Below are positions 40,875 to 64,000 of a stretch of 64,000 bases of DNA, in pieces. The position numbers and the translations under genes were made by a program. This DNA is from Polytrichum commune. Lineage: Eukaryota; Streptophyta; Polytrichopsida; Polytrichales; Polytrichaceae. The notes under the pieces were generated by a model that made no database searches, was not told the DNA's origin, and saw nothing but the letters and a program-made list of their open reading frames with translations. Numbering within the stretch: position 1 is the stretch's first letter; each line of letters begins with the position of its first letter. The DNA is taken from the NCBI GenBank assembly GCA_950295325.1, contig OX485804.1, positions 24,614,001 through 24,678,000 of the forward strand, in the 5' to 3' direction.

Positions 40875-41744
40875 ATAATTTAATGAAAACATGTTACGTT
40901 TTATTACCATTCCCTCTACCAACTTGTAGTGGCCAGTGTCCAACTTCATAGTATGAAGTAGACAACATTTACAATTATCTGATGAGAATTTGACCCTTCA
41001 AGGCCGGTGTGTGTCTACACAGTCTACATGACAAATTGTACGAGCTCAGGACAAGTCTTAAAGTGGAATTTTATCAAGTCCATGATTTTCAATATATCTT
41101 AATTATAACCTAGTCTAAATAACTAGGAATTGAAAATATGGTCATATGTGACAATGGTGACAAAGGATACTTAGTACATGTATGTGAAAACGGGTCATGC
41201 ATTTGAAACTTGAGTTTTTGAGAATCTCTCATAAAATGTGTATTGATTAGTTCGATATTTATAAGCCTTTTTCATTTACTTGTGGTGTATATATGTCACA
41301 GCCTTAGGTCCGAGTGCAATATCAAGGGTTGCCTGAGAACCATCTTACAGTTGAGCATTTAAACCAAATTGAGCGAAAGGCGTAGCATGTAATGTAAACA
41401 TGCTAGAAGCACACAAATGTGACATGTTCTAAAAGATCATGTACGAGCTATGGGTTAAGAATCATGAAACAAGTGGGCAAAAAACAACTAGGAGGAATTT
41501 ATGTTATAGAATCCATCTATTTTTTCATGAAGCACCAAAAGCAACATGCCTATTGCGGGAGGTTTTCTTTACATAAATTTTAAGAGATGCACTAGTAGGT
41601 TGTATAGGAGAGCTTGAATTGTCGTCTTTTCTCAAGAGTCATGTATATTTGACAGAAGTTCAAATTTTGTAAATTTCTATGAAATTAAAGAGTTTGTGAG
41701 ATCATTCTCTTATGGTTGAATTTGGAATCGGGAGCACCTAAACC
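40875..41744. other. No gene recognised, one duplicated block
   Basis: Positions 41,258-41,334 match 41,930-42,012 just upstream of the LINE frame (CCTTAGG, TGCAATATCAAGGGTTGC). This may be a second, 5'-only LINE fragment. Confidence 0.4.
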
Positions 41745-47443: not shown

Positions 47444-47940
47444 CCCTAACATTACCAAACCCAAAGGAGGTAAATGCGGTCCACATTTCGAGGCCTGTCA
47501 GAGGCTGCCCTGTACACCACGCCCTCAGCAGCCGGGACCCGCCCTTGCTCGAAACCCACCCCCTGCCGGCCCGGGCCATGCTGCCACGCGGTCACCTTTA
47601 CGCGCCCACCCACCCCCCGAGGCCACGTCCTCGCCAATGTCTCATCTCATGCATCCAGCCGGCATGCCCATTCTCTTGTTACAGTGACATCCCATCTGCC
47701 TCCATCATGGCATCCCATGGGGACCATGGGCGGCATGCGCCCATCGAGGCGAACCCATCTCCCTCGAGGGCCAGGTTTTGAATTATCTATTTAAAGCACC
47801 TCCATCCAACGATGGCTTCTCTTTTGCCTTGTAACCTGCACGCTCCGGATCTCTGCCCCAGTGGAGTGCAGGAGTGATGCGGCACTGATGCAGCGAAGAT
47901 TGCAGCACTGATGTTGCGAAGGGATTACGGGCATGATTAG
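47444..47940 (+). repeat. MULE left terminal inverted repeat
   Basis: It pairs with 59,153-59,668. It is GC-rich for the first 340 bases and then AT-richer. It contains a TATA-like word TATTTAAAG (47,788-47,796). Relative to the right copy it lacks 46-48 bases near 47,585 and has a 23-base local duplication near 47,900. Open frames of 100-138 codons cross it but occur equally in the right copy facing the other way, so I treat them as composition. Confidence 0.92.
47788..47796 (+). promoter_or_regulatory. TATA-like box in left TIR
   Basis: TATTTAAAG faces inward toward the transposase gene and is mirrored at 59,273-59,281. In MuDR the TIRs act as promoters, so this is a candidate distal start for the transposase transcript. 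Confidence 0.45.
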
Positions 47941-47974
47941 CATGTCGGATTATTGCCGCACTACAATCTCTTGC

Positions 47975-48395
47975 AGGAATTGATGGGAATCAAAGTTTGA
48001 TTTGCTAAAGTGTGGCTTTGGTTTTCATCTTCCTTTGCAACAATCCATTGAACCTTCCCTCTTCACTTATTGAAACCTAATCATCAGCTGCAGTACAATC
48101 TCCTCCACTTCCTGCTGGGTTTAGAGCAATGATCCACTGAAGTTTGATTTCATGTTTCATATTTCTGGCCACAAGTCTATTCAACCATCTCTCCTCATTT
48201 ATTGTAACCTAATCATTAGCTGCACCACAATCCCAACCACTTCCTGGTAGGTTTAAAGCAATGATCTGCTAAGGTGTGATTTCATGTTTCATATTTCTTT
48301 GCAGTAGTCTATTCAACCTTCCCTCATCATTGAATGTAACCTAATCATTAGATGCACTATAGTCTCCTCCACTTGTTGTTGGGTTTACAGCCACC
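47975..48395 (+). repeat. Left subterminal tandem array, about 131-bp unit, 3 copies
   Basis: The word AACCTAATCAT recurs at about 48,076, 48,209 and 48,339 with CTCCACTTCCTG, GGGTTTA, AGCAATGATC and TTTCATGTTTCATATTTCT between. The same unit in inverse orientation forms the right array (57,945-59,085). Terminal arrays of this kind are candidate transposase-binding sites. Confidence 0.85.
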
Positions 48396-48551
48396 AGGAA
48401 AGAGCACCGGATAGACAGTGCGTTCTTTCCACGCACAGCGCTCTCACTAACTGCGTTTTTCATACAAATTTGCAGATCTGGATTGAGGCATCGCTTTTGT
48501 TTCATCTCATGTATTCCTTTATTGCACGTCTCTTGCATAGAGGTATATAGT

Positions 48552-48559
48552 TATAAATA
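48552..48559 (+). promoter_or_regulatory. TATA box of the transposase gene
   Basis: TATAAATA lies 62 bases before the ATG at 48,621, which leaves a normal short leader. It is a better-placed core promoter than the TIR box. Confidence 0.5.
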
Positions 48560-48620
48560 CGGATTTGATGCCCCTTTGTAACATCTGTGTCAATGTTTTC
48601 ATCACAGATATAGGGCTTCA

Positions 48621-51427
48621 ATGGGTGACTATGTTACTGGTGCCGCTGTTCAGCCATGTGGTGCATTGCATACCAACGTCCAGCTTCTTCCAGATGAACA
48701 TCTTGCCTCCCAACGGCCACCTTGTATGTCGCGTGCCGTAGAGCCTTCCTACGAGTCCACGTACCAGGAGGTACACAAGGCAGACTTTGAGCGGCTCCGC
48801 GGTTTACTTCAGACACCCGAACCAGACACTTTCACGCACAAGGATCTCACGTGGGCAATCCAGATCCGCGCGAAAGGGTTTAGGGACGGTCCCAAGACTC
48901 ATGCTCCAGTTTCCGTAGCGTACATACCATGGGTAAGAGTACATGATTTCGTGAAAGGTGAGGAAGCTCGCATTGATGGTCCCTGCAAGTTTGTTTGCCA
49001 AGGCTCTCCATCGAACCAACAGGGGAAACTTACGTTCCCCCGATGGAACAGCTACTCCACCGTCATGAGGTGTGTTTGTAACATGTAATTTGAATTCCAT
49101 TGTGCATGTTCTCATGTTACTGATTTAAAAATTAAATGTTCCCATGTGTATGTGACTTGCACTCCCAACACATGTTGTTGACTCCATCGCCGACTACCAG
49201 GTATCATTGTCAATATGGCCCAAATGACAATGCCTCACATATACCAGTGGTTACGAAGGACATGTACCAGAAGAAACGAAAGCTCGACGTGAAGGGCAAG
49301 TATGTTCCAAACGGAAAAGGTCACACAGGACCACGCACATCAGCGAGGATGCGTGGATCAGGGCAACGAAGGGGTTGCCAGTGTGGATTTGTCGTGAAAC
49401 AATTCTACCTGGAGCCCTCAGTTGCAGAAATAACATACCATCAGATGAAGCATGTGAACTTGAATGGAATATTCTGCCATGGGTCCACAAAGATTGGCCA
49501 TAAGAGCAGATTCTCCAGCCATCTCTCCGTGCACGTCCGGGAATTCATCATGTGTCATTTGCGGCTGGGTTTGTCTATCCCCCAAATAATGGGAAAACAC
49601 AGAAAACGCTTCATGGAAGTGTGCGAGCAAGGGGAGGAGCTCACACGAGACCTCTTCATTTCTGAGCAAGACATCCGCAATGTCGTTGGCCGCCTCGCAA
49701 TAGAAACATACAAACGCGACAACAACGATGCAAAATCTATACGCATGTGGGTGCAAGAACATTCCTCTCTCGTGTTCTACTATAAAGAGTCAGGTATACA
49801 TGTTCGGGGGGCTATTACACGTGATAATATTCCATTCACAATTGGCATCCAGACATCTTGGCAAGAAGAGATGATGCTAAAGCACAGACACAAAAAAACC
49901 GTCTCCATTGACGCCACATTTGCAACTAACGAGAACAAGGTTTGTTGTTACCATACACCCACTATGAGCATGTTACACACCACGTCCACGCTAAGTGATT
50001 TGCTGTAACACTATTGGTTTTTTTCCCTCAAGTATATCCCAAATCGTAACATGTTATTTTCTTTCCCCTTGCAGTTTCTATTATACACCTTCATGGTGTT
50101 TGATGACTGGCTGAATGGAGTGCCCGTGGCGTACATTGTTACTTCTAGTTCCAAGCAACCTGATTTTGAGCCATGGATGAAGGTACTCGCAAAAAAATTG
50201 GCGTCCCTGCAACCTGACTGGGCGCCGAATGCATTCATTACAGATTGTGCGCAGGCTGAGATTGGAGGGTTGCAATCCGTGTGGCATGGAGTTAAAGTGT
50301 TCTTGTGCCTCTGGCATGTTCGTCGTGCATGGTTGAAGCAAGCGGTAGCGAAAATCAAAGACCACGCTATACGGGCTGCTGTGCTCAAAGGACTGGGTCG
50401 AATTATGTACAACACAAAGTATCCCCGAGGAGATGGAATGGGGCCTTGGGCCATTCGGCAGTTGAATGCTCTTAGAGAAAACTTCCCCATTGTGAGCAAT
50501 TTTTGGGCTTACTTTGACAAACAATGGGCAGATAAGACTGATATGTGGGTTGTTGGCCATCGTAACCTGCCATATGCAGGGTATGACACAAATGCTGCAA
50601 TTGAGAGCTACCACTCAAACCTTAAAGCCACCTTGTATGCATCAAAAGGCAGAGCGCATGGACGTCGCTTGGATTGGGTCATATACGAGTTGACAGGAGA
50701 AATTTTTTCCCATTATTGGTACCAGGCAATAAGGAAACAACACATGTTCGTCCCAAACTTGAAACAAGAGCAATTTGTTATCAACGTTGTGCTCAAAGCT
50801 AGGGAAATCCCTGACAGTTGTGTCACCCTCCCCATTGCAAATGACGGTCCAGCATTGGTAACGTCCATGAATAACGCGACGAAGTTGTATTCTGTGTACA
50901 GCCCGGACTGTGAATGGGGTTGTTGTGATTGCATGTGGGCACTTAAGGGCAACATATGCAAACATCAGATAAAGGTCCTCATGATACTCCATCCCGAACT
51001 TGCTGAAGGAACTATTACACGTTACTATGGGTCCCTTGCAGGCACATGTGAGGGTGGTCATGCGAACATGTTGGATCCTGTCGTGCATTTCCCAGAGGAT
51101 TGTGATGATACTAGGCCATCTTGCACTGCCGCGACGGCTCTGCATGGTACTACTGGCGCTCGCATCACCGCCAGTGTTACGGACATGGAAACCACTGTCC
51201 GTAACCTTGCAACCGAACTCATGGCGGCTGCCAGAGGCGACACTTTCTTGCTAGAACACCTGCTAGCTGACTTCCACATTGTCCGGGGGAAACAACAAAT
51301 CTTATTGGCTCAAATGAAACATGGCTTGGTGGAGCCATCGCAAGTGGAATTACATTTCAGCCCGAACGACGACGGCAGTAACATGTCACTAAAGCGGAGG
51401 AAAGACTTCCTGGAGCGTCAAAGATAG
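48621..51427 (+). CDS. MULE transposase, three exons, about 846 aa
   Basis: It catalyses cut-and-paste transposition of the element in the nucleus. Exons are 48,621-49,069, 49,201-49,939 and 50,075-51,427. Both introns are GT-AG (131 and 135 bp) with matching phases, and no internal stop is seen. Residues 122-234 hold Cys/His pairs (C122, C126, C209, C211, H230, H234) consistent with a WRKY-GCM1-type DNA-binding fold. The catalytic core has D387 (SIDATF), D453 (FITDC), the CLWH signature (C474, H477) and E573 (AAIESYHSNLK). A SWIM zinc finger closes it with C680, C682, C691 and H693. The start ATG lies 62 bases after TATAAATA. Length and domain order are normal for MULE transposases, and it is probably functional. 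Confidence 0.92.
49070..49200 (+). other. Transposase intron 1
   Basis: GTGTGT donor and CTACCAG acceptor. Splicing joins codon 150 as AG|G. The intron carries two of the CATGTTAC words (49,078 and 49,113). Confidence 0.8.
49940..50074 (+). other. Transposase intron 2
   Basis: GTTTGT donor and a strong polypyrimidine tract ending CCTTGCAG. The phase is zero, three codons after the first catalytic aspartate block. It carries two CATGTTAC words (49,969 and 50,046). Confidence 0.85.
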
Positions 51428-51434
51428 ACATGCA

Positions 51435-51461
51435 CATGTTACTGTGGAGGACGCATGTTAC
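51435..51461. promoter_or_regulatory. Pair of CATGTTAC motifs between two genes
   Basis: Two exact copies (51,435-51,442 and 51,454-51,461) lie just after the transposase stop codon and about 60 bases before the TATA box of the small gene. They belong to a set of 16 exact copies in the MULE. Confidence 0.5.
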
Positions 51462-51520
51462 AGACCTTGGCACATGTGTCAGCCATTCCCACATGCGGGT
51501 GGAAGTTCCAACATTGCCCA

Positions 51521-51528
51521 TATAAAGG
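51521..51528 (+). promoter_or_regulatory. TATA box of the small third gene
   Basis: TATAAAGG in the context CCCATATAAAGGTCG, 150 bases before the ATG at 51,671. A pyrimidine-rich leader follows. Confidence 0.5.
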
Positions 51529-51670
51529 TCGTGACGCTTTCATCTTCTACACTTCCACCACCCTCTCTTCTTTCACTCTCCCATTTTAGGGACCATAGAA
51601 ACGTGCAACTCAAGCCACTAGCACGTGGCCTGCCTTATGTCATTTTGCCTACTACCTCATTCCAAACACC

Positions 51671-52024
51671 ATGCCTCCCTTTCACGTAGCACGCATTAGT
51701 GCAGCTGTTTGGAAATGGTTATGCAGATGCCCTGATGTCATTGGACCAGTTCATGACACGTCTAGCGATGAGGAGTTCTACACGCCGCCAACAAATCCTC
51801 TGCGCCTTGCTGACGAGCAGTCCGATGTTACCGACTTCATGCCCCACAAACTTCCTGTGCAGGGGGCACTATCACCAGCGCAAAGTGTCCGGCTGAGGCG
51901 AAGACATGCACAGGTTGTGCGGCAGCTCACAACCCCACATCCTGCCGTTGCGCCTTCCCCACACGGCCCGTTGTTGGCATACCAACGACCAATTAAGGTG
52001 TATAGGCCAAGTTGGGCTCCTTAG
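51671..52024 (+). CDS. Small MULE-borne protein, 117 aa, unknown role
   Basis: One exon is read from an ATG in good context (ACACCATGCC) to TAG. The protein is Pro- and Arg-rich with an acidic patch (TSSDEEFYTPP, about residues 30-40), a basic patch (RLRRRHAQVVR, about 73-83) and no membrane segment. It lies in the same orientation as the transposase, about 245 bases after its stop, and has its own TATA box. That argues for a separate gene and not a read-through tail. The codon composition matches the neighbouring transposon genes, not the AT-rich surroundings. I recognise no family. It could instead be a downstream exon of an alternative transposase transcript. Confidence 0.45.
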   Translation: MPPFHVARISAAVWKWLCRCPDVIGPVHDTSSDEEFYTPPTNPLRLADEQSDVTDFMPHKLPVQGALSPAQSVRLRRRHAQVVRQLTTPHPAVAPSPHGPLLAYQRPIKVYRPSWAP

Positions 52025-52097
52025 TTTGATTTTCAAGGACTATCTCATGTTACATTGTGAACAATGTTTTCAAATGAATGATACATTTTCCCAGTTT

Positions 52098-52175
52098 GTG
52101 GGTATTGATTTAAGCGCCCCATCTGTAACGAGTGTTGTGGGTATTGATTTAAGTGTTCCATCTGTAACGAATGTT
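52098..52175 (+). repeat. 39-bp tandem duplication
   Basis: Two adjacent units (52,098-52,136 and 52,137-52,175) differ at only a few bases. Each contains TCTGTAACGA, a one-off variant of the CATGTTAC word. They lie in the 3' region of the small gene. Confidence 0.85.
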
Positions 52176-52575
52176 TGTCTTCAACCCCCTGCATTGCACC
52201 CATAGCATTTCCCCTATCACCAACAGTCATCCACACAGCTTGACCTTAAATTCCCTTTGCATTAATAGGTACGCCAGAAGCATATGCACTTATTCTCAAA
52301 CTGGGAAAACAGAATTGGGTCATGTTACAAATGTTGCAATTGTTACACAGTACAAAGTTCATCACCCATAAAGTACAAAATATCAATCATAACAACAAAC
52401 CCACTCATACTAACACCTACTATTTCCCGTTCTTCCCACCCAATCACTATTTACCTGCAAGTCCATGAATGCACTATCAAATTTTTAAACTTGTAACATG
52501 TACCTTACTTCTAACCTAGGATACAATGCATGTAACGGGTCCTCCGTTTGCCCTGGACGTCTATTAGGAGAGGAT
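52176..52575. other. Convergent 3' region between plus and minus genes
   Basis: AT-richer, no gene. It holds CATGTTAC words at 52,321-52,328 and 52,493-52,500, in opposite orientations. The minus-strand accessory gene ends at 52,576. Confidence 0.6.
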
Positions 52576-53117
52576 CTATTGAGTAGCATCTATGACAGCC
52601 TCCTGTGCAATCTGGGATACTTCAGCAAATGTATCGGCGGCCACAAGCACGGGCGGATCGTCAACCTGAGATGACGCGGCCGCTTCAAGTTCCTGCCCCA
52701 AATTTCGTGTTACAGCAAGTGAGGGCGTGGGAGTAAGTGACACCGAATCTTGCCAGTCCAAATCCAATTGACTGGGCAATTCCTCCAAAGACTTCTCTTG
52801 AGTCATAGGTATCTCCCATGCGGGTCCAACATGCACGTCTGCATCTGTGGAGGCAGCGTCCTCTGCATTATATTGGGGGTTTGGTTCCACCCGGGGCTGC
52901 ACAACCTCTGCCGATTCTGGTATGCTAACACCGCATACATCGTCGGCCTTGCTGGCATTCGTAACATGCACCTCACATTCTTGAATATCCACTTCGTGTT
53001 GGGTGGCTTGTGGAGGATGTACTTCCGATTGTTGGCAACGTTCTCTACTGATATTTTCTGCAACAGCTCTGAGCTCGTACAAGTACTCAGTGGGTTCCGG
53101 CGGTGGGACCATAACAT

Positions 53118-53217
53118 CTGCCAGCCAGTACACACATTGGCATTGTTACGTTTGTAACTTCTGAAAGATATGTTGAAAACAATACATCATGTCACAAATG
53201 AAAGTCCACAATTTTAC
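53118..53217 (-). other. Accessory-gene intron between exons B and C
   Basis: On the minus strand GTAAAATTG donor and CTGGCTGGCAG acceptor, 100 bp. It joins G|AT to make Asp, keeping frame on both sides. Confidence 0.7.
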
Positions 53218-53794
53218 CTGGGTTGGCAAGAACATATCCAATGTCCATGTCCTCTCGGTATTGTAACCATCTGTCGTAACATGCAAGGAAGCGTAAAGAC
53301 GCACTAGGAGGATCCCGAATGACCCAGGCACTGATCCACATCTGTGCGTCATGGAAGGCCATGTCTTGCACAGCTCTAAACTGAGTTGAATTGCACCATT
53401 TCCGCAACTCTGCCCACCAGTGAGGGCTGGGATTTTGTAACTCCCTCCAAGCAGCCTCCACATCTGCAACCCATTGGTATAGCGAATCCACCGGCCTGGC
53501 TCCTGCAAACACTACTAGAAAATCATGACCAAATCAACAGAAAATCAATAGATTTGTGTTGATTTGGGCACTGCAATGACCTATTTCACTGAATTTGTAA
53601 CTTCTTGCCAAAACCAACAGTTTGGTGCCTACTTTTTGTTGATTCGAGTAGTACAATGGCCAAATCAACAAAACTCACGCAAAATTAGAATCTTTAGAAT
53701 ATTCCATTATCCTTTTGGAAAAAAAATTGAGTATTTTGAAATCTTTTTAAACCATTCGAATCTTTTGGAATCTTTTGGAATCTTGAATACTACT

Positions 53795-54320
53795 AAATAC
53801 TGTAAATAATATATTGCAGATTATACTATAAATAATATAGTGCAGGGTATACTATAAATAGTGTATGCAGATTATATTATAAATAGTATATTACATAATA
53901 AAGTATAAATAGTATATTACATAATATAGTATAAATAGTATAATCTGTAATATACTTAAAATAGTATAGTTTAAACTATACTATAAATAGTACAATCTGC
54001 AATATATTAAAAATGTGATATGATATATTATATTATAAATAGTGTATTCTGAAATACATTATTTATAGTATAACTTGCAATATATTATTTTTAGTATATT
54101 TTTGAAGATATGTTAATATTATATTTTAGAATATAAGTAAATACTACATTTCAGAATATATGTATATAGAACATGTCAAAATATACGTAAATAGTATGTG
54201 TCAAAAAACACATAAATAGTATATTTCATAATATACATAAATAATCTATTTTAGGATATACGTATATACTAAGAATTTATTTAAATAGTATATATCAAAA
54301 TATATTGTAAATAGGTTTGA
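53795..54320. repeat. AT-rich minisatellite with internal palindromes
   Basis: About fifteen degenerate units of roughly 25-35 bp are built on ACTATAAATAGTATA, which is itself close to palindromic. The middle of the CACTA element consists of this tract. Confidence 0.7.
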
Positions 54321-54342
54321 AGTGTTCCTCACATACAATCTA

Positions 54343-54785
54343 CCCTCTATAAATGTTAACCTCCGGGAGTGGATCAAAGTTAACATTTATAAAGGTGTTA
54401 ACATCTAACAATCATAAAATTATTTTTTTGAGCAATATACAAATCTTAACATTTATAAATATAAGCAATTGTGAAGAGTGCTTGTGAGAGAATACCATTC
54501 ATAAAATTGCAAACCCAATTAAAACTTTATTTCAATATCAAGTTTACAAATCATGGGTGAAGTATGAATCAATGGTTCTTTGGTAATTGAATGTGTAGTC
54601 TTTATCATCCACCTCATGGTTGTATTTCATTTGTTAACATTTATAAAGTTAAATTTACAAAGAAGGGAGTACCATTTTGTTAACAATTAACACGTTTAAC
54701 ATTTATAGTGTGCAATATGTGGGGAGTAGAAGAAAGTTAACATTTAGAGAGGGTTAACACTTATAGGTGTAACATTTATGGAGGG
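54343..54785. mobile_element. Small inverted-repeat element inside the CACTA
   Basis: Ends CCCTCTATAAATG and CATTTATGGAGGG are inverted with one mismatch, and GTTAACATTTATAAA-type words recur several times inside. No target duplication was found, so the boundaries are provisional. Confidence 0.45.
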
Positions 54786-54827
54786 TGCACTATAAAACGG
54801 TTTAAAGCACTCCCTTTATATCAAGAA

Positions 54828-55010
54828 AGTGTGTTGACTTGGTGGTTAGAACCACCAAGTGGGAAGCCCAAGGTTGGGGGTTCCAATCCCTTGGCCCGCA
54901 ACTATGACCTCTAGCCTAGCCTAGCAAGCCTAGGCGAGTATGTTGGAGTTGATGGGGACGTAGTTTGTGATGTGGTAGTAGTCTGAAATTAATTTTTTTT
55001 GCCCGAACAT
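54828..55010 (+). repeat. tRNA-derived SINE inside the CACTA
   Basis: A box A-like word (TTGGTGGTTAGAACC, 54,839-54,853) and a good box B (GGTTCCAATCCC, 54,879-54,890) have tRNA promoter spacing. The unit ends in a T-rich tail (AATTAATTTTTTTT). It is not a tRNA gene because no acceptor stem closes around the boxes. Confidence 0.6.
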
Positions 55011-55826
55011 CCAGGCCGTAAAAAATAAAATTTTCCGGAAAATCCGGAAAGTAAAAAAATTGATTTTTATTTTTATTTTTATTTTTGTTGGTAAACTTTT
55101 GATGACCAGATCAACAGAACAGATCAACAAAACCGTGTTACAGAGTGTCCAGGTCAACGCGTCCTAAGTAACAACCGCGACCAACATTTTTTTGTTGATC
55201 CGGACGCAAAATTTTCTACTAGTGAAACAACACGAAATCCTCTTCTTTCAAGTACGACGTTGCTAGCTGCCAAGCATGCGGGCCATCTCCATCGACTTCT
55301 TTTGCGACCCCCAACCATTTCATGATGTTGGCTCCAGTGAGGCCATTCTGCGGGTGTAATAGCACAGGGGGCAATAGGCTATAATACTTAAGAAAACATC
55401 GAAGGAGAAGAACTGACCAAGGCACCGGGTACACCCTCTTCACCTTAGATTGTTGCAATAAGACTTCACGCACATTCCAACCCTCAACAGCTGTATGAGA
55501 CAAGGGGTAAGGGGGTATGAAGTTGGCGCAAAGAGGATTGGCTAGAAAAGAGGCATAGAAAGGGTGCCACCCCCAAGTAGCTTGCAGCAAACGCGGGTAA
55601 TGCTCGTCATCCCACTATTTCATGGCCTTGGCAATGGCTTCGTTGACCTTTTTTTGGCGGTCGTCCTCCCATTGCTTTCGTTCTTTGACCACCTCCCGCA
55701 TGACGAAGATGTGTTGCACGTAAGTGATTAGAGATGCCGTCTCCACGTCCATAGCGGTGGCATCCTCAATGTTGCTGACGACCCTCACCACAGCCTGCGT
55801 GATTAGAGGTGTTATTTCTGGTTTGC

Positions 55827-56051
55827 CTGCATCAACAAGTACAGAACATGTTACGAGCAAGTTAACATTCCCAAACACATGTTACGACTTCATTACCATC
55901 TGTCAACACATGTTACAACCGCGAATCATAGAGACAACAAGAACGGCAGCATGAGTGTGGTCACAAATGAAGAGGAAATGTTACACTGTTACAAGAGGAA
56001 ATGCATAATATCATAAACTGCAAAGAGGGCATAAAAACATGTAGGTGTTAC
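55827..56051 (-). other. Putative accessory-gene intron A/B with three CATGTTAC motifs
   Basis: On the minus strand GTAACACC donor and TTGATGCAG acceptor, 225 bp. Exact motifs lie at 55,847-55,854, 55,878-55,885 and 55,909-55,916, spaced 31 bases apart (both intervals are 31). The splice phase is one base off, see the gene entry. Confidence 0.5.
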
Positions 56052-57506
56052 CTGGTGTGAAGAAGAATAAAATCTGCCGTATGCGGCAAACAGTCTATCC
56101 ATGAATGTTGGGTGGTTTTTCCATTCATGAACCTGAGCCTCGAAGTCTTCATATTTGCCGTGCTCCAAATCAAAGGCCAGAAGACCACAGGCCATCAAAT
56201 GGAATAGGCCCGGGGGTTGTATTGGCGGCCTCAAAGGTGGTTTGGGGATGTCCATCTTGACAGTCCCGCGCGCTGCAGTTGCGACTTTCAGGTAGAAAGC
56301 ATGGCGCTCCTTTCGAAGCCCCAATGCTAAGTCGTGCTCCTCTCTTGGAGTCTCCATATGAGTGGCAGGTGTAACAGGTGGAAGAGGCGCGTCTGGCGGT
56401 ACATGCGCAGCAGGAGAGGGCGGCACCTGCTTGGTAGGAGGGGGAGCCAGCAAAATGGCAACCCTCTCTGGTGAAGGGCAACGAGTTTGGAGAGGTGTGA
56501 CCTGAATGGGGTGGGGAGGAGGTACTCTCTGGCCAGCTGCGGAAGGATGCGCAGGTCGCGGAGGGTTCGGTGGCCGCTCATCTCCACCAGCCGCATGTCG
56601 CGAATGCAGGGGACTATGTTTTCGGTGCTGAGTTCTGAACTGTCGGCTGGAATGGAAGACGCGGTGGCCACCCTCCATTTCTGTATGGCTCCGTTTCTTC
56701 GGCCGGACAAGGGGCGCCTCGTCCTCATCACTTTCATCATCGGGGAGCTCAACAAAAGTTGGTGGCTGACGTGGGGCAAAATCTTGCCTGGGAGGGAGTG
56801 GCGGTTTGCATTTGGGTGGCGGCCGGAAATCTCTGGGTGGGGGAGGGTAGGCTGTCAATCTCTCCAGCGTCGCCTCCATGAACGAACGCACCTGAACCCT
56901 GGCTCCGGGGGGAGGGAGAGTGACATCCCTGAGCTCAGGGTTTAAATCCAGCCATACCTCATCCTCGTGGAGGTTGTCCCACAATTCCCCATCACCACGC
57001 TGAAGAGCAAGTTTGAAATCCTTACCTTGTTTTGCCGTCTTCAGATTGGGATACACAGGCAGTTCCCACTTTGCTCCACGCGAGTTCACTGGTCCACACG
57101 AGCAGCCTCCAACTCGGTGGTCTGTGAGCCGTAGTTTGCTAGGAAATGATCCTCTGCAATAGACGCACATCCAATCGTCCCTGGCCTTGTCCCCATTCCG
57201 AGTGCGGTTGCGAGTACACTCCAACTTCAACTCAATGTAGACATGCCGCCTGACGTGCTGCTCCACCCACCCCGCAGAATCCCGGTTGACGTAGTACACA
57301 ACCTCGTCCCCTTCCGCCATAGTAGCTTCGGCCTCGCAGTCCCTATCCTGCAAACATCCCTCAGAGTCAATGGCCATGAAGAGGGCACTTAGAGGCCCGA
57401 GGAAGAAGGAGGACGAATGAGTGCTTGCGGCACGGGGAATATGGCGGCAGGTTCCCGGATGCGGGTCGCCGGAGCCCTCCGGAGGAAGGAGGGCAGCGAC
57501 ACCCAT

Positions 57507-57944
57507 TCTAACACACTGCAAACCCTAAAAACTGAGAGTAGATGAGTGCAGTGCCTTTAAGAAGCTGAAGTGACCAGAACACATGGAATGCAGAAAAGAT
57601 AAAGCACAAAACTTTCAAGTGCAATCTGGGCTCCCACGAATGAGGAAGACACCGGAAAAAATAGCCAACACAAACTAACGGAAACTGCGACATGTTACAA
57701 GAATGTAGGCTACTGGGATGACACACACCTGTTGTAACCACCGTGTGCGCACGGTGTGCTTGTCCGACGATGAAGGTAGTCGACAAAAATAGCACGCCTT
57801 GCTGGAGTTCCGCAAATTAAGCCTTACACCTGCTGACAATGAGGACATGAATTAGAATTGTGGACAACATATTGGCCGGCACACTTGACCACTTCATTCA
57901 TACAAACCAATCACTCCATGGACGAGACCAGAGTGCGGCAAAGA
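57507..57944. other. Upstream region of the accessory gene
   Basis: The leader and promoter zone of the minus-strand gene. I find no strong TATA box close to the ATG, so transcription may start in the right TIR (TATA-like 59,273-59,281). One CATGTTAC motif occurs at 57,691-57,698. Confidence 0.45.
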
Positions 57945-59085
57945 TTTGGGCTGTGCAACAAATGATTAGGTCAGGCTATATGAACAGTGATGCTTCATCA
58001 CATTATTGCAACCTAAACCCAAAATGATTTCACATCTGAACGCATCACTGTTCTAAACCCATCACAAACTGGACGGGACTGTAGTGCAGCTAATGATTAG
58101 GTTACAATAAATGAGGAGGGAAGGGTGAATGGCCTATTGCAAAGATATATGGAAAATGACAACATAGTTTAGGAAATCACTGCTCTAAAACCAGCAGGAA
58201 GTGGAGGAGATTGTAGTGCAGCTAATGATTAGGTTACAGTCAGTGGCGAGGGAAGGTTCAATGGACTGCAGCAAAGAAATATGAAAAGGGAAGCCACATT
58301 TTAGCACAACATTGCTGTGAACACAGGACGAAGTGGACAGGACTGTAGTGCAATTAATGATTAGGTTGAATGGACTATTGCAAAGAAAAATGAAAAATGA
58401 GGCCATAATTTAGCAGATCATTGCTTTAAACCCAGCAGGAAGTAGAGGAGACTGGAGTGCAACTAATGATTAGGTTTCAGTAAATGAGTAGGGAAGGTTT
58501 TTAGGACTGTTGCAAAGAAAGATGAAACATGAAATCACACTTTAGAATATCATTGCTCTAAACCCAGTAGGAAGTGAAGGAGACTATAGTGCAGCTAATG
58601 ATTATGTTACATTCAATGAGGAGCCAAGGTTTAATAGGTTGTTGCAAAGAAATATGAAAAATGAAGCCTAACTATAGCACACCATGTCCCTAAACCTAGC
58701 AGGAAGTGGAGGAGACTATAGTGCAGCTAATGATTAGGTTACAATAAATGGGGAGGCAAGGTTGAGTGCACTGGTTGCCCACAAATATGAATAATGAAGC
58801 CACACTTGAGCACCTCATTCATCTAAACCCATCACTTCCTAAAAGATGTTGTGTTGCGGCAATAATCCTAGGTGTTTGGCAAATGAGTAGGTTACAATCA
58901 CAGAGAAACGATGGTTGAGAAGACATTCCACCCAAATATGAAAAACAAAGCACTCTTGACCTAATCATTGTTGCACTCCAATCAGTTCGTGGGACATACT
59001 GTACCACAACAATAATCCAAGGTGTGCAACACAATATAAGGTTACAGTCGATCAGAAACAATGCTTGATTGGACATTTGCAAAGA
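57945..59085 (-). repeat. Right subterminal tandem array, about 131-bp unit, 8-9 copies
   Basis: CTAATGATTAGGTT recurs at about 58,091, 58,223, 58,353, 58,464, 58,597 and 58,729. More worn copies lie on both sides. Most spacings are 130-133 bases and one is 111. The units are the inverse of the left array, so the two arrays extend the TIR symmetry inward with unequal copy number. Confidence 0.88.
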
Positions 59086-59152
59086 AACATGAAAAGTTCT
59101 GTCACTTACCTTGTTTGTAACCACCATGTTCGAAAGGAAGCGCTGAAGATGT

Positions 59153-59668
59153 TAATCATGCCCGTAATCCCTTCGTTGCATCAGTGCCGCATCACTCCTG
59201 CACTCCACTGGGGCAGAGATCCGGAGCGTGCAGGTTACAAGGCAAAAGAGAAGCCATCGCTGGATGGAGGTGCTTTAAATAGATAATTCAAAACCCGGCC
59301 CTCGAGGGAGATGGGTTCGCCTCGATGGGCGCATGCCGCCCATGGTCCCCATGGGATGCCATGATGAGGCAGATGGGATGTCACTGTAACAAGAGAATGG
59401 GCATGCCGGCTGGATGCATGAGATGAGACATTGGCGAGGACGAGGCCTCGGGGGGTGGGTGGGCGCGTAAAGGTGACCGCATGGCAGTCCAGCGTGGACA
59501 CTGTGACAGCCTGGCGCCATCAGCGTGGCAGCATGGCCCGGGCCGACAGGGGGTGGGTTTCGGGCAGGGGCGGGTCCCGGCTGCTGAGGGCGTGGTGTAC
59601 AGGGCAGCCTCTGACAGGCCTCGAAATGTGGACAGCATTTACCTCCTTTGGGTTTGGTAATGTTAGGG
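59153..59668 (-). repeat. MULE right terminal inverted repeat
   Basis: It is the inverse of 47,444-47,940. It holds an extra block of about 46 bases (about 59,482-59,529) absent from the left copy. Confidence 0.92.
59273..59281 (-). promoter_or_regulatory. TATA-like box in right TIR
   Basis: On the minus strand TATTTAAAG, the mirror of the left TIR box, facing the accessory gene. With no good box nearer the gene, this is its best promoter candidate. Confidence 0.4.
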
Positions 59669-61599: not shown

Positions 61600-63130
61600 A
61601 ACTAAAAATTTGTGTAAATTTTTTTAATCTTACAAAGATGTCAATTGTTGAATCATGTCTATCATATGAGGTGAACAATTCCTTCAACAAGCTTCTCTAT
61701 CCGACTGAATTTGTTTAGGCAATTTTAGGGAGATTTTGCTTCGGCCTTTAGGGGGTTGGTATTCACGGAATGTCTTGGGTTGAGGGCCTCACATCTTATG
61801 CAAATGGCATAGGTGGCCAAGAAGTATGGATCGCAGGTTCTACTATAAAACCATTTGTCATGCCATAATCGAGTACTTGTGTGAACAATCGCAACTATAC
61901 AAAAGTGCCAATCGTATGGTTATATCTATCATAAGAAATGCACAATTTCTTCAATAAACTTTTGTATCGGATTGACATGTTTTAGGCAATTTTGGGAAGA
62001 TTTCAGGCCTTGGACAAATACCAAAATAACTATGGTTAACTAGATTTTTTTCAATACATTTTAGGTAACAACCATAGTTAACTAGAAAAATTTCAAACCA
62101 ATTTGAAGAACAACTATAGTTAACTAGAAAATTTTAAGACCAAATTCAAGAACAACTTTAATTGATTAGAAAAACTCCAAGTCTTATTACATATTCGAAG
62201 AAGTTTGCCTAAAATAACATTATTCATATGCATAGTAATGTTATTTCGGTCTGAGTGTGGGGAATATTCAGTGGAATATTGTCAGTCCCACATAACATTG
62301 CAATGCGTCTGAATAATGTTATGCTTGAGTTGCTTGAGTTGAGGGTCTTTAATATGCTCGGGCCATCAAGAAGCATCAAGAAACTCCTTTATACCATCAC
62401 TCACATTGTTGGGCTCCAAAACAACCTCCATGTACACCACCAACACAAATAACACACTACACCATATATGATATTTAGTGTTTGATTAGATTTAGTGTTG
62501 TTACCACCCTGTCTTGCTCAACACTAATTTTCAATTCTTTGATAATTAGTGTTACACATAAATGTACCACCACCTTCCCTACCGCCACCTCCCTTCTCCT
62601 TTTATCATTGTTAAAAAAAAATTCCATATCCTTACTCACACTAACTTCATGCATGTAACTTCCACAGATTACCATAGTTGATATTTAGTATTTGAGTTTA
62701 CATTCAATGTTACTTACTTTCATAGGGTTAGTGATGTTTAGTGTATGCATTCGTATTTTGTGTATTAAACACTAAATATAATATCTAGTGTAGTGACATT
62801 ACAACACCGCAACAAAATTCCGTGGATAAGCTGCGCTCAACTTTAGTTAACTAGATTTAACTAGAGTTAACTAGATTTTTTGGCGAAACAAATTTAAAAC
62901 AACTATAGTTAATTATATTTTCTGACAAGTCAAATCGCAAACAACCATAGTTGTGAAAGGCAAGTAGTTAACTAATACTTGAATTAGTTGGCTAGTTGTC
63001 CAAGGTTTGGAAGATTTTGCTTTCGGCCTTGATGGGTTAAAATTCCACGTGAGGGCCCTACATCTTATGCAAGTGGCATAGATGTCCAAGAGTTCTAGTA
63101 ATAACATCATGGGTCATGCCATAACTGTGT
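61600..63130. repeat. Degenerate tandem duplication with GTTAACTAG array
   Basis: Blocks at 61,733-61,872 and 63,012-63,130 match (ATTTTGCTT, CATCTTATGCAA, GGCATAG and GTCATGCCATAA). The block at 61,680-61,745 recurs at 61,952-62,016. Between them, units of about 53 bases carrying AACTATAGTTAACTAGA repeat at 62,030-62,170 and again at 62,845-62,960. A TA-flanked MITE (62,460-62,790) interrupts the array. Confidence 0.55.
62460..62790. mobile_element. TA-flanked MITE
   Basis: 331 bp from CACCATATATGATATTTAG to AATATAATATCTAGTG, flanked by TA (62,458-62,459 and 62,791-62,792). It is the reverse-oriented close relative of 63,623-63,973. Confidence 0.7.
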
Positions 63131-63620
63131 AGGCATGATTTCCGATGCCATTCAACACGTACCGAGCCTTCAACACGTACTAGCAATCTGTCAAAGTTGC
63201 TAGTTATGTTTCAAATACTTAACTTTCAAGTCCCTCGTAAATCAAGGTAATAAAATCTAGGTTAGAATTATATGTGTGTGCATAATGTAAAATCTAGACC
63301 AATTATCTGTAAGAGAGGACATAGAAAAATGAACTATTTAGAAATAATTAAACCCTTCATGTTTTCTTCAGCTCGATTCGGACTCCTCAGTGACATACTG
63401 CATTTTGTAATTGTACAACATGAATATAGATTATGACATGGCTTTGGGAAATAGTGATAACTCAATGTCTTGCAAGGCTATTCTTCTTGGAGTTTGAACA
63501 CAAATGAACAAGGAGAGTTTGATGAAGATTTTATTTCATCTAGTATAAAGAAAGAATACACAATTGGTACAAACAAGTTAAAAGCAGTTAGGGTCAATAT
63601 GTGAGTTGGAGGTGCAAAAC
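63131..63620. other. No gene recognised
   Basis: AT-rich spacer between the tandem duplication and the last MITE. Confidence 0.35.
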
Positions 63621-63622
63621 TA

Positions 63623-63973
63623 CACTAAAAAGGATATTTAGTGTTTGATACAGTAAATACGAACGCTTACACTAAATGTCAATAACCTTATGAAAGTAAG
63701 TAACATTAAATGTAAACTCAAACACTAAATATTAACTATGGTAATATGTGGAAGTTTACATGTTTGAAATTAGTGTTAGTAAGGATATGAAGAAAAATAA
63801 TTAAATTTAAAAAAAAATGATATCCATGCTTCACAAAAAGGGAGGTCCAAGTAGGGAAAGCAACAACATATTTATGTCTAACACTAATTATCAAGGAATT
63901 GAAAATTAGTGTTGAACATGGTAGGGTGGTAACAACATTAAATATAATCTAACACTAAATATCCTTTCTAGTG
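63623..63973. mobile_element. TA-flanked MITE
   Basis: 351 bp from CACTAAAAAGGATATTTAG to ATATCCTTTCTAGTG, flanked by TA (63,621-63,622 and 63,974-63,975). Blocks such as CTAATTATCAAGGAATTGA face their counterparts in 62,460-62,790. The last 25 bases of the window beyond it are plain. Confidence 0.75.
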
Positions 63974-64000
63974 TAGTGGGTTATTGTGGGAATTATGTAA

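Follow-up and report, generated by a model that had tools for sequence, protein, structure and literature searches.

The 8-bp word CATGTTAC is concentrated in the non-coding DNA of a Mutator-like element (MULE; 47444..59668, no strand assigned) in a 64,000-nt stretch of the moss Polytrichum commune (assembly GCA_950295325.1, contig OX485804.1, positions 24,614,001 to 24,678,000), hereafter the window. The MULE is interrupted by a CACTA element; without this insert it is 10,510 bp long and carries 16 exact copies of CATGTTAC, compared with none in the CACTA and three (30190, 34406 and 40890) in the other 51,775 bp. We tentatively interpret the word as the site of a protein encoded by the element's own family, with an anti-silencing effect like that of the VANC proteins of VANDAL MULEs. 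This is the best single mechanism that we can propose and it is unproven: we infer binding, reader and effect alike.

CATGTTAC is the commonest 8-mer of the MULE. Its 16 copies compare with 0.42, 0.72 and 1.53 expected under Markov models of orders 1, 2 and 3, respectively (Poisson P 3e-20, 1e-16 and 1e-11). In 600 simulated sequences, 200 at each order, the word reached at most 3, 5 and 6 copies, and the highest copy number of any 8-mer was 8, 10 and 10. Composition and chance were rejected as sources of the excess on the basis of these expectations and simulations, and the concentration of the word reported in a preliminary description of this DNA thus persists against a composition-matched background at Markov orders 1-3. 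At order 3, CATGTTAC is outranked by ACCTAATC, CCTAATCA and ATGATTAG, which are words of the 132-bp subterminal repeats of the MULE, and it drops out of the six top words listed once the order is raised to 4 or 5, as would be expected of models that include most of the word already. Outside the MULE, the three copies are at background level (2.8 expected). The zero count in the CACTA has a probability of 0.025 at the rate of the internal region of the MULE, and the CACTA is therefore a weak control. In eight overlapping tiles, each 10,510 bp long, taken from the left of the MULE, the most frequent dispersed 8-mer was the AT-rich AAATTTTG, with 8 copies. With the 16 words masked, the internal non-coding DNA was searched for further dispersed words; mainly GTTACA-, GGGAA-type and CAGATGG words came up, the longest in 3 copies, and none was comparable.

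The MULE carries a transposase gene, a small open reading frame (ORF) and an antisense accessory gene. Their gene models were drawn up by eye, following splice sites and open frames, and verified by translation. Internal and terminal DNA were separated at positions 48600 and 57720, boundaries of our own choice that keep the word at 57691 internal. The internal non-coding DNA so defined (1,652 bp) holds 13 words, the coding sequence (5,754 bp) three and the terminal DNA (3,104 bp) none. The internal non-coding DNA would be expected to hold 0.10 words at the rate found outside the MULE (P 8e-24), and its enrichment also holds against the element's own coding sequence (P 9e-7). The three words within coding sequence compare with 0.33 expected at the outside rate (P 0.005), and the coding sequence is therefore also mildly enriched. 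Moving the boundary to the accessory start codon (57506) changes the counts to 12 internal non-coding, 3 coding and 1 terminal, and the conclusion stands.

CATGTTAC is present in both transposase introns, both intergenic gaps and accessory intron 1, as well as 5′ of the accessory start. Two words lie in transposase intron 1 (49070-49200), at 49078 (-) and 49113 (+), spanning 49078..49120, and two in intron 2 (49940-50074), at 49969 (+) and 50046 (-), spanning 49969..50053. Two plus-strand words, at 51435 and 51454 (51435..51461), follow the transposase stop and precede the small ORF, at distances of 86 and 67 bp from a TATAAA downstream of them at 51521, and the intergenic DNA between the small ORF and the accessory gene holds three, at 52046 (+), 52321 (+) and 52493 (-), spanning 52046..52500. 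Three plus-strand words in accessory intron 1 (55847, 55878 and 55909; 55847..55916) are spaced exactly 31 bp apart. The word 5′ of the accessory start codon (57691..57698, +) is in a presumed leader or promoter. The coding words, all on the minus strand, are at 51378..51385 in the transposase and at 52961..52968 and 53276..53283 in accessory exons 3 and 2, respectively. All 16 starts given in the preliminary description were exact, and its statements that 13 of the words are non-coding (here on splice-site gene models), that the three intron words have an exact 31-base spacing, that two words lie upstream of a TATA box and that the CACTA has none were borne out, the last with the reservation on this control made above. 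The three words that it placed outside the MULE were likewise found, the third at 40890 instead of about 40892.

The DNA around the words is unrelated from site to site. Flank identity was below 50% for every pair among the 16 words (highest pair 42.5%, over 40 flanking bases), with a mean of 26.5% compared with 25.1% in 200 random sets (standard deviation 0.7). This rules out recent duplication as the process by which CATGTTAC was multiplied. The 24 one-mismatch neighbours of the word have 14 copies in total in the internal region, compared with 9.9 expected, and none has more than 2. The bases just before and just after the word are never C in any of the 16 copies and are otherwise variable. 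Ten words are on the plus strand and six on the minus strand; relative to the assumed transcription spans, five are sense, seven antisense and four outside the spans, a mixture that favours recognition of DNA over recognition of RNA. Unrelated flanks, variants near background and the use of both orientations are what one would expect if a stringent binder of double-stranded DNA used scattered sites, each of them maintained on its own.

The element is assigned to the MULEs by the PF10551 domain of its transposase (E 1.1e-11, above the cut-off of that domain) and by its ends, where long terminal inverted repeats (TIRs) of about 455 and 498 bp, with arms of 122-196 nt at 97-98% identity, are bordered by a target duplication of 9 bp, CCACCGCTT, without mismatch. 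The TIRs differ in length by approximately 43 bp, the right being the longer one, and their alignment has 45 gap columns; the additional bases lie at about 59480-59530, between the aligned arms. We consider the MULE probably "plant-type", judging by the kinds of element in the window; neither transposase exon 3 nor accessory exon 1 had relatives in viral and prokaryote contig collections, where a miss says little about plants. Inside both TIRs are subterminal arrays of ~132-bp repeats (47998-48391 and 58021-58825), mutually inverted, many copies of which contain ATGATTAGGTTACA; they differ from CATGTTAC and may serve in end recognition. To the right of the MULE, repeated units with AACTATAGTTAACTAG, spaced at 42 bp, occur at 62028-62168 and 62859-62957, near inverted repeats at 62448-63985.

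The transposase gene (48621..51427, +) encodes 846 amino acids in three exons (48621-49069, 49201-49939 and 50075-51427), with GT-AG introns and an open frame, and its product also has a SWIM-type CxCx(n)CxH pattern. The small ORF (51671..52024, +; 117 amino acids; no Pfam match up to E 10) is convergent with the accessory gene (52576..57506, -), for which we predict three exons (56052-57506, 53218-55794 and 52576-53117). The second of these is split by the CACTA (53510..55224, no strand assigned; 1,715 bp), which has CACTA/TAGTG ends and AAA on both sides, and which contains at 53797-54314 an AT-rich array of 25-26-bp units of the ATACTATAAATAGTATA type.

Under the mechanism that we favour, CATGTTAC would be bound by a protein that recognizes this sequence in double-stranded DNA and covers the internal non-coding DNA of the MULE. 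Its likeliest reader would be encoded by the element family, and the antisense accessory protein is the leading candidate, because there is one canonical C2HC finger pattern, WMCVYCRGSFPSKLRLTDHRVGGC, in its first exon. The likeliest effect would resemble that of VANC proteins on VANDAL MULEs, namely to keep the chromatin of the MULE transcribable or make it so. Since the accessory gene is broken in the present copy, the sites here would need protein from another copy. A VANC-like function had already been put forward in the preliminary description. It is supported insofar as the word is specific to the MULE within the window, exceeds what composition predicts and is dispersed in introns, leader and intergenic DNA like the sites of VANC21. 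The resemblance does not extend to the VANC domains, the VANC21 and VANC6 motifs, the arrays, the uniform orientation or the TIRs, and the terminal DNA has no exact word.

Several of our observations weigh against this mechanism. Pfam support for the accessory finger is weak (zf-C2H2_4, E 0.71), no Pfam match of the accessory pieces reached its cut-off (best CecR_C, E 0.0044), and two single-sequence structure predictions, the first of them for the finger region, gave no confident fold (mean pLDDT 37.6 and 31.1); searches of solved structures returned chance-level matches alone (best E 0.076). A single C2HC finger usually specifies fewer than eight bases. The accessory gene carries two lesions in the same inferred exon 2, namely the CACTA, on either side of which the frame is open, and upstream of it an in-frame TAG at 55615-55617, which an alternative splice form may conceivably skirt. 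The VANC domains DUF1985 and DUF287 gave no Pfam match at E up to 1 in the nine exon pieces and none up to E 10 in the spliced transposase and the small ORF, and a diverged VANC relative may be among the proteins of the MULE. Moreover, accessory intron 2 has no exact word, merely two GTTAC cores, and there is none upstream of the transposase, including its TATA motifs at 48544 and 48552. As regards conservation among copies, neither blastn nor tblastn found a second copy of the family in the window. Finally, the mean flank identity, 2 standard deviations above random, may reflect a faint common ancestry of some sites.

The main rival explanation, which we regard as somewhat unlikely, is that the words are sites of a host transcription factor used for expression of the MULE. 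A GT-3-type trihelix protein would be an example, as GT-3 is reported in the excerpted text of PMC4783932 to bind 5′-GTTAC-3′, and these are the five 3′ bases of CATGTTAC. Even when the 16 words are left out, GTTAC remains in excess in the internal non-coding DNA (11 copies compared with about 2.4 expected), and two words lie 67 and 86 bp upstream of the TATAAA. However, CATGTTAC is three bases longer than the GT-3 site and exact in 16 places, and CAT precedes 13 of the 24 GTTAC in internal non-coding DNA compared with 3 of 82 outside the MULE, so that the signal exceeds the GTTAC core; from these sequence counts, GTTAC may be the core of the word and CAT the half that gives it specificity. 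A plain promoter role also fits poorly with the 10 of 13 non-coding words that are in introns or 3′ of genes and with the lack of an exact word upstream of the transposase TATA motifs. In addition, the background level of the word in the rest of the window counts, as far as this one window goes, against a host factor. Alternatively, the words may be internal binding sites of the transposase, used for assembly or self-regulation. All 15 GTTAC of the terminal DNA are followed by A, and one protein could thus recognize two forms, strong internally and weaker in the terminal DNA. Yet 12 of these 15 are in subterminal repeats or TIR pairs (compare AGGTTACA of the subterminal repeats) and are therefore not independent, and the terminal DNA, where a transposase would be expected to act, has none of the exact words (one of 16 with the boundary moved to the accessory start). 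We consider this explanation unlikely.

The words could also be remnants of old tandem arrays or products of some other process, with no present function. The 31-bp triplet in accessory intron 1 may be such a remnant, its second and third units being the pair with the highest flank identity of all (42.5% of 40 flanking bases), and the slight excess in mean flank identity points the same way. Neutral decay would nevertheless leave many one-mismatch words, and the 14 observed among the 24 neighbours, against 9.9 by chance, make this origin improbable. Least probable is an RNA-level signal, for splicing or as a small-RNA target: seven of the 16 words are in introns, but five words are sense and seven antisense, and others are intergenic. 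Recognition of the words by a protein of the element family, with a VANC-like effect, remains the mechanism that we prefer. Even with a host reader, the sites suggest selection on single short words in the introns and gaps of a MULE.

Short motifs repeated many times within a transposon are also known from En/Spm, where they are read by the element-encoded TnpA. The TnpA motifs are subterminal and serve transposition, whereas none of the 16 words of the present MULE is in its 3,104 bp of terminal DNA. The VANDAL MULEs offer the closer parallel. According to the excerpted text of PMC5735166, the YAGTATTAY sites bound by VANC21 are found in the non-coding DNA of VANDAL21 (introns, intergenic and terminal regions), densely arrayed in one orientation and often as part of tandem repeats; in the targets of VANC6, tandem repeats contain AGTTGTCC/AGTTGTAC. 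In contrast, CATGTTAC is dispersed and in mixed orientation, with no tandem array except the one 31-bp triplet, a difference which also counts against our preferred mechanism, and it lacks an exact copy in terminal DNA, where VANC21 motifs do occur. The two published motifs that we compared (YAGTATTAY and AGTTGTMC) are absent from the MULE, and AGTTGTCC/AGTTGTAC occurs 7 times in the rest of the window and never in the MULE. The likeness of CATGTTAC to YAGTATTAC (5 matches) was discarded as evidence, as 30% of random 8-mers equal it. VANDAL elements typically have short, degenerate or absent TIRs, unlike the long ones seen here, and TIRs do occur in some elements of the VANDAL clade (excerpted text of PMC6446971). 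Of the VANDAL-type features, one was seen, in a single copy and a single window, namely the enrichment of a short motif specific to the element in its non-coding DNA; four others (VANC domain, published motifs, arrays and orientation, short TIRs) were not found, and we therefore do not class the MULE with VANDAL.

A literature search with the exact CATGTTAC string gave no plant-transposon title among the matches listed, and for motif-guided anti-silencing by a transposon protein, VANDAL-type MULEs alone turned up in the sources available as excerpts. We hold it doubtful, yet worth stating, that the present MULE, with its long TIRs, represents a second, independently evolved case of sequence-specific anti-silencing, in which the accessory protein is a zinc-finger protein other than VANC and exact 8-bp words are scattered singly and without tandem arrays. 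If this is true, a second unrelated case would mean that such code words evolve repeatedly and that tandem arrays are not needed, and the step from binding to loss of silencing would be open to testing with a different protein. What the present element shares with the VANC21/VANDAL21 (Hiun) system of Arabidopsis is that, in both, a MULE has a short motif that is enriched in its introns and intergenic DNA and rare elsewhere, and the different word of VANC6 and the related VANDAL6 shows that such words diverge.

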